Assembly (NCBI RefSeq): GCF_003963535.1
Contig: NZ_CP034539.1
Coordinates: 5,022,001-5,086,000, forward strand
DNA length: 64,000 nucleotides
Direction: 5' to 3'
From: Streptomyces cyaneochromogenes
GTDB taxonomy: Bacteria; Actinomycetota; Actinomycetes; Streptomycetales; Streptomycetaceae
In this document: piece after piece, positions 25,132-37,085 of the stretch
How positions within the stretch are numbered: the first letter of the stretch is position 1
How the letters are laid out: each line of letters opens with the position of its first letter
Translations under genes and position numbers: made by a program
The notes under the pieces: model-generated
The model's input: the letters and a program-made list of their open reading frames with translations, nothing else
Told to the model about the DNA's origin: nothing
Databases searched by the model: none

Positions 25132-26064
25132 ATGCCAGCGAGCTACGCCTATCTCGGCCCCGAGGGCACCTTCACCGAAGTCGCCCTGCGCACCCTTCCC
25201 GAGACCGCGACCCGGGAACTGATCCCCTACGTGTCCGTGCAGTCCGCGCTCGACGCGGTGCGCGCCGGCGAGGCCGAGGCCGCGTTCGTGCCGATCGAGA
25301 ACTCGGTCGAGGGCGGCATCACCACCACGCTCGACGAGCTGGTCGCGGGCGCGCCCCTCATGATCTACCGCGAGGTGCTGCTGTCGATCACCTTCGCGCT
25401 GCTGGTCAGGCCCGGCACCAAGCTGTCGGACATCAAGACGGTCTCCGCGCACCCGGCCGCCCAGCCGCAGGTACGCAACTGGCTGAAGAAGAACCTCCCG
25501 GACGCCCACTGGGAGTCGGCCGCCTCGAACGCGGACGCCGCGCGCCTGGTCCAGGAGGGCCAGTACGACGCCGCCTTCGCCGGTGAGTTCGCGGCCGCCC
25601 GGTACGGCCTCGAGGCCCTGGAGACCGGCATCCACGACGCGGAGAACGCCCAGACCCGGTTCGTGCTGGTGGGCCGGCCGGCCCGGCCCGCGGCGCCGAC
25701 CGGCGCGGACAAGACCTCCGTCGTGCTGTGGCAGCGCGACGACCACCCCGGCGGGCTGCGCGACCTCCTGGGCGAGTTCGCCACCCGCGGCATCAACCTG
25801 ATGCTGCTGCAGTCCCGTCCCACCGGCGCGGGCATCGGCAACTACTGCTTCTGCATCGACGCCGAGGGACACATCTCCGACCGCCGGGTGGCCGAGGCGC
25901 TGATGGGTCTGAAGCGGATCTGCCTGGAGGTCCGCTTCCTCGGCTCGTATCCGCGGGCGGACATGAAGCCGGGGGATGTGCAGCCGCCGCGCCTCGGGAC
26001 GTCGGACGAGGCGTTCGTGTCGGCGTCGGACTGGGTGGCTCGGTGCCAGGACGGGCGGTTCTGA
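25132..26064 (+). CDS. pheA: Prephenate dehydratase
   Basis: 310-residue enzyme that converts prephenate to phenylpyruvate in phenylalanine synthesis. The catalytic domain (residues 4-185) has [21 protein letters not shown] and the threonine motif [10 protein letters not shown]. An ACT regulatory domain follows (about 200-275, with [20 protein letters not shown] and [13 protein letters not shown]), the phenylalanine-binding module; its usual ESRP reads QSRP. There is no fused chorismate mutase, as in other actinomycetes. The start is the ATG of [12 protein letters not shown]. The gene precedes serS, separated by a 577-base region rich in DnaA boxes. Confidence 0.96.
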
Positions 26065-26145
26065 GCGGTTCGGTGCCAGCCGGTTCCGACTGGTTCCGAA
26101 TGGATCCGGCATGGGTTTCACGCCGGTACTACCAGCTGATTGTCG

Positions 26146-26484
26146 TTATCCACAGGAGTTATCCACAGGTACTCTTCTCGACCTGGGGACAAGTCGACAA
26201 GAAAGCATGAGTCTGTCGACAAAGCGCTCCCCAGGACCCATCGGCGTCCACCATCGCGCAAGTCACCCTTCGTCCACTCTTTTCCTTTGGGCAATCCTTT
26301 GGGGCGACCGCTTTCCACTCGAACGTGGGGATACAGAGGGTTTGTCCTGGGAATCCTCGACTCGCGCGGCGCGTTACGGAGTGATCAATTCCGACGTCCA
26401 CAACCCATCCACACAGCCTGTGGATAACTCTTCAGGGGCTGGGGATTCCTGTGGACAACACGACCTCAAGTCCCGTTCTCCACA
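26146..26484. promoter_or_regulatory. Cluster of DnaA boxes between pheA and serS
   Basis: Perfect 9-base boxes: TTATCCACA at 26146-26154 and 26159-26167 (+), the same word on the minus strand at 26419-26427, and TTGTCCACA on the minus strand at 26450-26458. Near matches (8/9) are at 26184-26192 (-) and 26476-26484 (+), with 7/9 matches at 26394-26402 and 26405-26413. The 577-base gap holding them has no gene. S. coelicolor has a published high-affinity cluster, D78, that titrates DnaA near oriC; this is probably its counterpart, by inference. Confidence 0.8.
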
Positions 26485-26628
26485 AGGGAATCGAGTCAAC
26501 CGGGCGCCGCACCCCTGCCCCGTTCCAGGGAGTGAGACGCTTTTTATTGACACGTTTCGCAATTCACCCATAACGGAACGTAAGCCGCAGTTCGGAATAG
26601 CGGGTCGTGGGCTGTCACCCCGCCCCGG

Positions 26629-26634
26629 TAGCCT
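26629..26634 (+). promoter_or_regulatory. -10 element of a probably leaderless serS transcript (TAGCCT)
   Basis: TAGCCT fits TANNNT and ends 7 bases before the GTG at 26642, and no ribosome binding site precedes that codon. Transcription would begin at or next to the start codon. I see no T-box leader. Confidence 0.55.
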
Positions 26635-26641
26635 TGAGCGC

Positions 26642-27919
26642 GTGATTGACCTTCGCCTGCTCCGTGAGGACCCCGACCGAGTGCGCGCCTCGCAGCGCGC
26701 CCGTGGAGAGGACGTCGCGCTCGTCGACGCCCTCCTGTCTGCCGACGAGCGGCGCAGGTCGTCCGGCGTCCGCTTCGACGAGCTGCGTTCCGAGCAGAAG
26801 AACCTCGGCAAGCTCATCCCCAAGGCCTCCGGCGACGAGAAGGCCGAGCTGCTGAAGAAGGCGAGCCAGCTGGCCGCCGACGTCAAGGCGGCCGACGCCG
26901 AGCAGAACGAGGCCGACGAGGAGACCAAGCGCCTCGCGCTCCAGCTCGGCAACCTCGTCCACCCGGACGTCCCCGTGGGCGGCGAGGAGGACTTCGTCGT
27001 CCTGGAGACGCACGGCACCATCCGCGACTTCGGTGCCGAGGGCTTCGAGCCCAAGGACCACCTGGAGCTCGGCGAGGCGCTGGGCGCCATCGACGTCGAG
27101 CGCGGCGCCAAGGTGTCCGGCTCCCGCTTCTACTACCTCACCGGTGTCGGCGCCCTGCTGGAACTGGCCCTGGTGAACGCGGCGATCGCGCAGGCCACCG
27201 AGGCCGGCTTCATCCCGATGCTCACCCCCGCGCTGGTCCGCCCGCGCGCGATGGAGGGCACCGGCTTCCTCGGCCAGGCCGCGGAGAACGTGTACCACCT
27301 GGAGAAGGACGACTACTACCTGGTCGGCACCTCCGAGGTCCCGCTCGCCGCGTACCACATGGACGAGATCCTCGACGCGGAGAAGCTGCCGCTGCGCTAC
27401 GCGGGCTTCTCGCCGTGCTTCCGCCGCGAGGCCGGCACGTACGGCAAGGACACGCGCGGCATCTTCCGCGTGCACCAGTTCGACAAGGTCGAGATGTTCT
27501 CGTACGTCACCCCCGAGGACGCGGAGAACGAGCACAAGCGGCTCCTGGAGTGGGAGAAGCAGTGGCTCACCGGCCTCGAGCTGCCCTTCCAGGTCATCGA
27601 CGTCGCCTCGGGCGACCTGGGCGCGTCGGCGTCCCGCAAGTTCGACTGCGAGGCGTGGATCCCGACCCAGGGCAAGTACCGCGAGCTGACCTCGGCCTCC
27701 AACTGCGACAGCTTCCAGGCCCGCCGGCTGTCGGTGCGTCTGCGCGACGGCAAGAAGGTGCAGCCGCTGGCCACGCTCAACGGCACGCTGTGCGCCGTCC
27801 CGCGCACGATCGTGGCGATCCTGGAGAACCACCAGCAGGCCGACGGCTCCGTCCGGGTGCCCGAGGTGCTGCGCCCGTACCTGGGCGGCCGGGAGGTCCT
27901 GGAGCCGGTGGCCAAGTGA
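26642..27919 (+). CDS. serS: Seryl-tRNA synthetase
   Basis: 425-residue class II aminoacyl-tRNA synthetase charging tRNA-Ser. An N-terminal coiled-coil arm (about residues 25-105) reaches the long variable arm of tRNA-Ser. The catalytic core has motif 2 ([15 protein letters not shown], then RVHQFDKVE) and motif 3 ([16 protein letters not shown]). The GTG at 26642 begins [15 protein letters not shown], the conserved N-terminus of the family, and a -10 element sits at leaderless distance. A tRNA-Ser(GCT) gene lies 1 kb downstream on the other strand. The next gene overlaps the stop by four bases. Confidence 0.97.
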
Positions 27920-33236: not shown

Positions 33237-33353
33237 TTTTCCACATCGGCAAGGTTTTCCACAGCCCGAGGCAGGCCTATTGACGCAGCCTCTAACAACT
33301 GTCACATTCGCCAGTGTCAAGTTACGGACACGTACCGCAGTCAGTGTGGACAA
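33237..33353. promoter_or_regulatory. Three DnaA-box-like sites in a divergent gap
   Basis: TTTTCCACA occurs at 33237-33245 and 33255-33263 (8/9 matches, 18 bases apart, same strand). A perfect TTGTCCACA lies on the minus strand at 33345-33353, just before the M24 gene. The gap separates the ABC operon from the M24-SDR genes. Confidence 0.55.
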
Positions 33354-37031: not shown

Positions 37032-37085
37032 TTGTCCACAGAATCGCCAATTCCCCTGTGGATAACACTACTTGGTTGTGGATCA
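37032..37085. promoter_or_regulatory. Three DnaA boxes upstream of kptA
   Basis: TTGTCCACA at 37032-37040 (+), TTATCCACA at 37057-37065 (-) and an 8/9 match, TGATCCACA, at 37077-37085 (-) lie within 54 bases between the MerR and kptA genes. Confidence 0.65.

Follow-up and report, generated by a model that had tools for sequence, protein, structure and literature searches.

What are so many DnaA boxes doing in the non-coding DNA between pheA and serS of Streptomyces cyaneochromogenes, and does their arrangement matter as well as their number? The question was addressed in a window of 64,000 nucleotides (chromosome positions 5022001-5086000, the whole stretch of DNA that was analysed; positions are those of the window unless a chromosome or another genome is named) and in the corresponding loci of relatives. 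The gap between the two genes measures 577 bp (the pheA stop ends at 26064 and the serS GTG is at 26642), and gene ends and Pfam matches agree with the non-coding position that a sequence-only reading of this DNA had given to the boxes. The same reading had placed them far from dnaA, and the dnaA match indeed starts at chromosome position 5130274, 82 kb from the cluster on a chromosome of 10.68 Mb.

Box content of the pheA-serS gap

Both strands of the gap were scanned with the consensus TTRTCCACA, and the matches were classed as exact, one-mismatch or two-mismatch boxes. Four boxes are exact and span 313 bp, three carry one mismatch and eight carry two, the last class including two weak boxes in the right half (Table 1). 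The four perfect boxes claimed by the sequence-only reading were all located, and its 13-bp direct pair and its 31-bp opposite-facing pair are both real; its list was right otherwise, except that it gave two 8/9 boxes where this consensus gives three.

The box cluster is far above chance: seven boxes of at most one mismatch were seen, whereas 1000 runs of a first-order Markov simulation of the gap averaged 0.18 and peaked at 3. Exact TTRTCCACA occurs at 69 sites genome-wide, versus 20 for the reversed pattern. The claim of a dense cluster holds well, since this is the densest group among the 69 exact sites: the pheA-serS gap is the sole place with four exact boxes within 1 kb among the genome matches listed, and the next densest among them has three exact boxes (chromosome positions 5152188-5152412). 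When the 400 kb around dnaA were scanned by weighted scoring, the gap came first (score 11) and oriC second (9), the best 400-bp oriC window holding nine boxes, none of them exact, against the four exact boxes of the gap.

Table 1. Features of the pheA-serS region, in window coordinates.
Feature	Position	Strand	Basis and remarks
pheA, prephenate dehydratase	25132..26064	+	Pfam PDT and ACT; reading frame checked
DnaA box 1, TTATCCACA	26146..26154	+	Exact; conservation below that of box 2 (80-sequence alignment)
DnaA box 2, TTATCCACA; core of left module GTTATCCACAGG	26159..26167	+	Exact; spacing anchor
Box 3, TTGTCCCCA (one mismatch, 26184), with adjoining two-mismatch TTGTCGACT	26184..26200	-	Conserved plus-strand block CCTGGGGACAAGTCGACA
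Box 4, TTGTCGACA (one mismatch, 26214), within conserved block TGTCGACAAAT	26214..26224	-	Box scan, alignment
Stretch homologous to the S. coelicolor ScbR site for sco3961	26260..26287	+	Aligned by eye; contains weak box TCGTCCACT (26270)
Element M (central, conserved), TTCCAC-N-CGAA-N-G, imperfect dyad	26313..26325	.	Alignments; not a DnaA box
Weak boxes ACGTCCACA, CCATCCACA (two mismatches; 26394, 26405)	26394..26413	+	Relatives keep block TCCACAGATC
DnaA box A, TTATCCACA	26419..26427	-	Exact; alignment
DnaA box B, TTGTCCACA (CCTGTGGACAA)	26450..26458	-	Exact
Outer box, TTCTCCACA (one mismatch)	26476..26484	+	Found in some relatives only
TAGCCT, resembling a -10 element, 7 bp upstream of the serS start codon	26629..26634	+	Conserved in the 80-gap alignment; putative promoter element of a leaderless serS mRNA
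serS, seryl-tRNA synthetase	26642..27919	+	Pfam Seryl_tRNA_N and tRNA-synt_2b

Two smaller groups of boxes were observed elsewhere in the window. Two exact boxes and one 8/9 box lie at 37032-37085, between genes of the MerR family and of an RNA 2'-phosphotransferase (KptA/Tpt1), and two copies of TTTTCCACA 18 bp apart, together with an exact TTGTCCACA, lie at 33237-33353 in the divergent gap between ABC transporter and M24 peptidase genes (starts chosen by eye).

Identity and range of the cluster

By box sequence and position alone, the gap holds several high-affinity boxes in intergenic DNA away from oriC, as a D78-type locus does. The serS gene of S. coelicolor is SCO3961, on cosmid SCD78, which would be the site of the D78 cluster, and the pheA-serS cluster is very probably the counterpart of D78. 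The sequence-only reading had made this identification from the position near serS, and it is very likely right; clusters are also found near oriC, one upstream of dnaB and one beside crgA, which is where counterparts of S. coelicolor H24 and H69 would be expected. S. coelicolor D78 has dense high-affinity boxes, lies tens of kb from oriC and would have the same place, and there is probably no essential difference between the two, this being very likely the same locus in another Streptomyces species. In the work of Smulczyk-Krawczyszyn et al. 2006 (J Bacteriol 188:6184), D78 reportedly binds DnaA about eightfold more tightly than oriC does, its deletion is said to have increased the number of origins relative to chromosome ends, and extra D78 copies reportedly slowed growth.

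The dnaB-side cluster (chromosome positions 5095076-5095338; L098:5076-5338) comprises five boxes that deviate from the consensus by one base at most. It lies about 35 kb from dnaA, its flanking genes are dnaB and a divergent gene for a MATE-like transporter (named by reading), and it is presumably the counterpart of S. coelicolor H24. The other (5152167-5152412; L101:2167-2412) has three exact boxes and one with a single mismatch; it is flanked by a rhomboid gene and by crgA, a cell-division gene, lies about 21 kb from dnaA on the other side from the pheA-serS cluster, and is presumably the counterpart of H69.

The passages seen of PMC5742627, PMC4585315 and PMC10950094 describe the S. coelicolor DnaA-box cluster as analogous to datA and as repressing untimely initiation, and they call the Streptomyces and Bacillus clusters datA-like without giving a mechanism. 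The likeness to E. coli datA and to the Bacillus subtilis clusters is that these too are chromosomal DnaA boxes off oriC which restrain initiation, according to the parts seen of PMC5742627 and PMC4585315.

Concerning the range of the cluster, the first sample comprised the best 80 of 583 confirmed serS loci, all of them Streptomyces by name except L035 ('Actinobacteria bacterium'), which is included in the Streptomyces counts. In the pheA-serS gap each of these 80 loci, like the window, has two or more exact boxes and four to nine boxes with at most one mismatch. The full Streptomyces set consisted of 136 loci (80 + 15 + 40 and the window; 134 distinct sequences among the positives), and the cluster, taken as at least two exact boxes and at least three boxes in total within 900 bp of serS, is upstream of serS in 135 of them. 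The exception is L040, in which an insertion of about 1.5 kb splits the cluster.

Among the other Streptomycetaceae, the cluster lies within 1.5 kb of serS in 37 of 40 loci from 13 genera (80 of the 218 matching family genomes were examined). Two of the three remaining loci, L166 and L167, belong to the same genus and the third, L197, to another. In L166 the cluster may be displaced, because three exact boxes (positions 3402625-3402718 of that genome) sit about 4.8 kb upstream of serS. In G183, a Streptomycetaceae genome without a cluster next to serS, five exact boxes within about 200 bp (G183:C12:294760-294963) were observed among the matches listed, on the same contig as serS. In other families of the class the cluster was found in none of 34 loci (34 of 142 other-family genomes), and pheA is upstream of serS in 17 of these. 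A search of the plasmid collection with the gap gave no match. Judged from the sequences sampled, the range of the DnaA-box cluster is most of the Streptomycetaceae.

The comparison that the sequence-only reading had proposed as its check, an alignment of the gap across Streptomyces, shows that box order is clearly kept. When 80 gaps are aligned, the boxes are prominent, box 2 included (each of the 12 columns of 26158-26169 reaches at least 90%), and non-box stretches are prominent too, chiefly GTCGACA beside box 3 and element M. The arms of element M vary in pairs around CGAA among relatives (CCAC/GTGG, CTCAC/GTGAG, CACYCG/YGAGTG), which suggests a dyad-binding protein or an extruded hairpin. 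Two other ideas about this part of the gap were dropped: element M as a DnaA box, with three to four mismatches by eye, and a SigR-like GGAAT-N18-GTT at about 26350, whose downstream part is not conserved in the alignment.

With its imperfect dyad and its varying arms, element M could also belong to a conserved non-coding RNA or to a leader structure of serS, with the boxes there by coincidence. However, DnaA boxes of either orientation are among the best-conserved stretches, and the steps of one helical turn described below would be unexpected of RNA linkers. An Rfam search of 25900-26800 on either strand gave no match up to E = 1, and an RNA explanation of the locus appears scarcely credible.

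Spacing of the conserved modules

From locus to locus, the conserved modules are displaced relative to one another either by small shifts of 1-3 bp or by steps of about 10, 20 or 30 bp, and half-turn changes are rare. The distances between modules were obtained by a pattern search for boxes 2(+), 3(-), A(-) and B(-), in which order and allowed ranges were fixed and no phase was imposed. The pattern is fitted by 129 of the 136 Streptomyces loci, the seven without the full pattern (L027, L030, L031, L038, L040, L080 and L120) being omitted; in six of them, all but L040, boxes 2 and A are 250, 260 or 270 bp apart, and these values were included manually, giving n = 135. In the 129 fitting loci, the distance from box 2 to box A is 255-263 bp in 97, 268-273 in 18 and 278-281 in nine, with single loci at 288, 290, 294, 295 and 303, and box A to box B is 30-31 bp in 116. 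Measured in whole turns of 10.5 bp from 259.5, 129 of all 135 distances between boxes 2 and A are in phase to within 2.6 bp, the six out of phase being 255, 263, 273, 288, 294 and 295; when only the values more than 5 bp off 259.5 are taken, 32 of 36 are in phase.

The same quantisation is seen within this distance. Allowing two mismatches in a motif, and counting both Streptomyces and the other genera as tips, box 2 to box 4 measures 53-57, 65-67 or 76-77 bp (139 of 149 tips), box 4 to M 97-99, 108-110, 118-119 or 128 bp (129 of 149), and M to box A 104-109, 116-118 or 127 bp (133 of 149), while two loci with 96 bp from M to box A, a whole turn short, fall outside the search range of that interval. 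Changes were then counted by parsimony, using a tree built from the pheA genes of 149 loci (L177, in which no pheA was found, was left out). The three inner intervals together give 64 changes of 1-3 bp, none of 4-8, 21 of 9-12, none of 13-18 and five of 19-22, and the whole distance from box 2 to A gives 37 changes of 1-3 bp, three of 4-8 and 22 of 9-12. Support for this tree is partial, with 74 of its 148 internal nodes left at a threshold of 0.9, and these counts are therefore approximate; when the nodes below 0.9 are collapsed, the bins of the inner intervals become 56, 0, 20, 0 and 5. A second method used conservation as the sole criterion for picking blocks in the 129 fitting loci; 528 of the resulting spacings equal the mode, and 134 differ from it by 1-3 bp, one by 4-8, 28 by 9-12, two by 13-18, six by 19-23 and three by more.

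Neighbouring DNA served as control. From the pheA stop to box 2 there are 11 changes of 4-8 bp versus 12 of 9-12, and in the gap upstream of pheA (79 loci) there are four of 4-8, five of 9-12, four of 13-18 and seven of 19-23, the raw lengths of this gap having no 10.5-bp period (R 0.03). Fisher tests of half-turn versus whole-turn bins separate the inner intervals from the pheA-stop control (P = 5e-5) and from the upstream-gap control (P = 5e-4). A broad in-phase count over 4-60 bp gave 27 of 33 for box 2 to A, and the upstream-gap control reached 27 of 39; this control value makes the broad count uninformative, and the empty half-turn bins were therefore used instead. The two control intervals are not quantised, and the distance from box B to the serS start is weakly so (20 changes of 9-12 bp versus 12 of 4-8 on the pheA tree).

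Steps of 10 bp could also reflect a mutational habit, the duplication or insertion of a 10-bp unit, and not selection on helical phase. Among ten close pairs that differ by 9-12 bp, one 9-11-bp insertion makes up most of the step in four, a tandem 10-bp repeat is plain in one further close pair (L052), and in several loci of one genus a step of +10 coincides with an extra box-like 10-mer (e.g. L169). On the other hand, in most other close pairs the net change of about 10 bp results from several indels of other sizes (L112, L206, L054), a kind of gap that the aligner can create at 64-83% identity. Furthermore, the 10-bp steps occur in at least three different intervals, and the pattern is absent from the pheA-proximal part of the gap and from the gap upstream of pheA. 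In view of the four pairs explained mostly by a single insertion, mutation may have contributed, and on the evidence of the ten close pairs such an origin may account for up to about half of the steps; as the explanation of the pattern it seems improbable, and selection on total phase is likely to be behind the whole-turn spacing.

The phasing is looser beyond the genus. In three other genera the distance from box 2 to the A-like box is 245 bp (7 of 7 loci), 201-202 bp (3 of 3) and 229-251 bp (6 of 6), and the right half is rearranged in all three; strict phasing does not hold from genus to genus.

The Streptomyces oriC offers a comparison. It has similar boxes and box-like blocks (TTGTCCCCA, CTGTGGACAA), and its block spacings likewise deviate by 1 bp or 10 bp only, although they are far more rigid than those of the pheA-serS cluster: with the same block method in 30 genomes, 868 of 885 spacings are at the mode, 11 are off by 1 bp and the remaining six by exactly 10 bp, all of them in one interval. 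A cruder re-measurement of that interval without the mismatch filter was noisy (21 bp in 14 of 30 loci, 11 bp in five, other values in 11), and for this reason the comparison is to be taken as suggestive. For oriC, the passages seen of a review (PMC4285127, citing Woelker and Messer 1993) state that one-turn changes between selected boxes are tolerated and that part-turn changes between them are highly detrimental.

Function of the locus

The simplest function would be a passive DnaA sink, in which box number and strength alone matter and the boxes are bound independently. The packing of four exact boxes in 313 bp would suit such a sink, as would the reported properties of D78, which is said to be tighter for DnaA than oriC and to have altered S. 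coelicolor growth when its copy number was changed. However, nearly all changes of the inner spacings are of 1-3 bp or of whole turns, and several conserved stretches are not DnaA boxes, neither of which is expected of independent sites; we regard the passive sink as unlikely. The initiator-titration role put forward by the sequence-only reading is supported in its D78-type part, and passive titration is probably too simple because of the helical phasing and the conserved non-box elements.

The cluster lies directly upstream of serS, and its main task could instead be transcription control, with DnaA, and perhaps ScbR, regulating serS and replication control being secondary. The interval from box B to the serS start is weakly periodic at about 11 bp (R 0.61 raw). 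In the parts seen of PMC4595836, ScbR ChIP-seq in S. coelicolor lists a 28-nt site for sco3961, given as serS; the printed site has one mismatch to L080 and one to L120 and lies inside the cluster of L080. A site for ScbR, a GBL receptor, in the middle of the cluster would make a link between quorum signalling and the DnaA locus possible. Against a mainly transcriptional role, the interval from box B to the serS start is otherwise loose (96-502 bp), and collapsing the tree lowers its in-phase count to 40 of 69 (P 0.11). Moreover, in three loci of another genus pheA is about 1.5 kb from serS and the cluster lies near pheA, 1.1-1.4 kb from serS, and in L040 the left half of the cluster is about 2 kb from serS. 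The ScbR table of PMC4595836, in the part seen, prints 0.947 for serS as an unlabelled figure. Regulation of serS as the main function thus seems quite unlikely to us.

We consider it probable that the pheA-serS gap is a D78-type DnaA control locus at which a helically phased, looped complex restrains re-initiation. DnaA would bind the left half (boxes 1-4) and the right half (the weak boxes with A and B), about 260 bp apart, and the conserved element M between the halves would possibly be bound by a second protein. Because the modules keep fixed helix faces, the bound DnaA, possibly together with a protein at M, is proposed to assemble into a single orisome-like structure that is bent or looped. 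DnaA held in this complex, about 80 kb from oriC, would leave less DnaA for oriC, and re-initiation would be restrained. From the whole-turn spacing of the modules across Streptomyces we infer a stereospecific, orisome-like DnaA complex with this restraining effect; the sequences establish the boxes, their conservation, the range and the spacing rule, whereas DnaA occupancy, looping and the effect on initiation are predicted. The distance from serS to dnaA is 79-96 kb in five of five genomes compared, and therefore the locus would double soon after initiation, which would suit a feedback role. Regarding the contacts between the two halves, the passages seen of PMC13270200 report that the domain I dimer of DnaA is conserved in actinomycetes, and that domain I contacts of S. 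lividans DnaA are proposed to link distant clusters of boxes in oriC.

A further step may be considered more tentatively. D78-type loci could be a second orisome-like machine, with its own protein at element M and a register kept over about 300 bp, which acts on DnaA itself. Such activities exist in E. coli, where datA works with IHF and promotes ATP hydrolysis on DnaA, and DARS promotes nucleotide exchange. We hold this to be possible but rather doubtful; if true, D78-type loci would alter DnaA, by ATP hydrolysis or nucleotide exchange, and not merely hold it.

A D78-type locus is already known. A helical-turn rule for the pheA-serS or D78 locus was not found in the literature searched, most subscription journals being outside its scope, and the whole-turn phasing, with the element M described here, appears to be a new and testable mechanistic clue. 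Element M is, moreover, a conserved non-DnaA bait for finding a partner protein. A rule of whole-turn spacing that is kept through many separate changes across the genus indicates that geometry matters at this locus, and it bears on how Streptomyces couples replication to growth and development.
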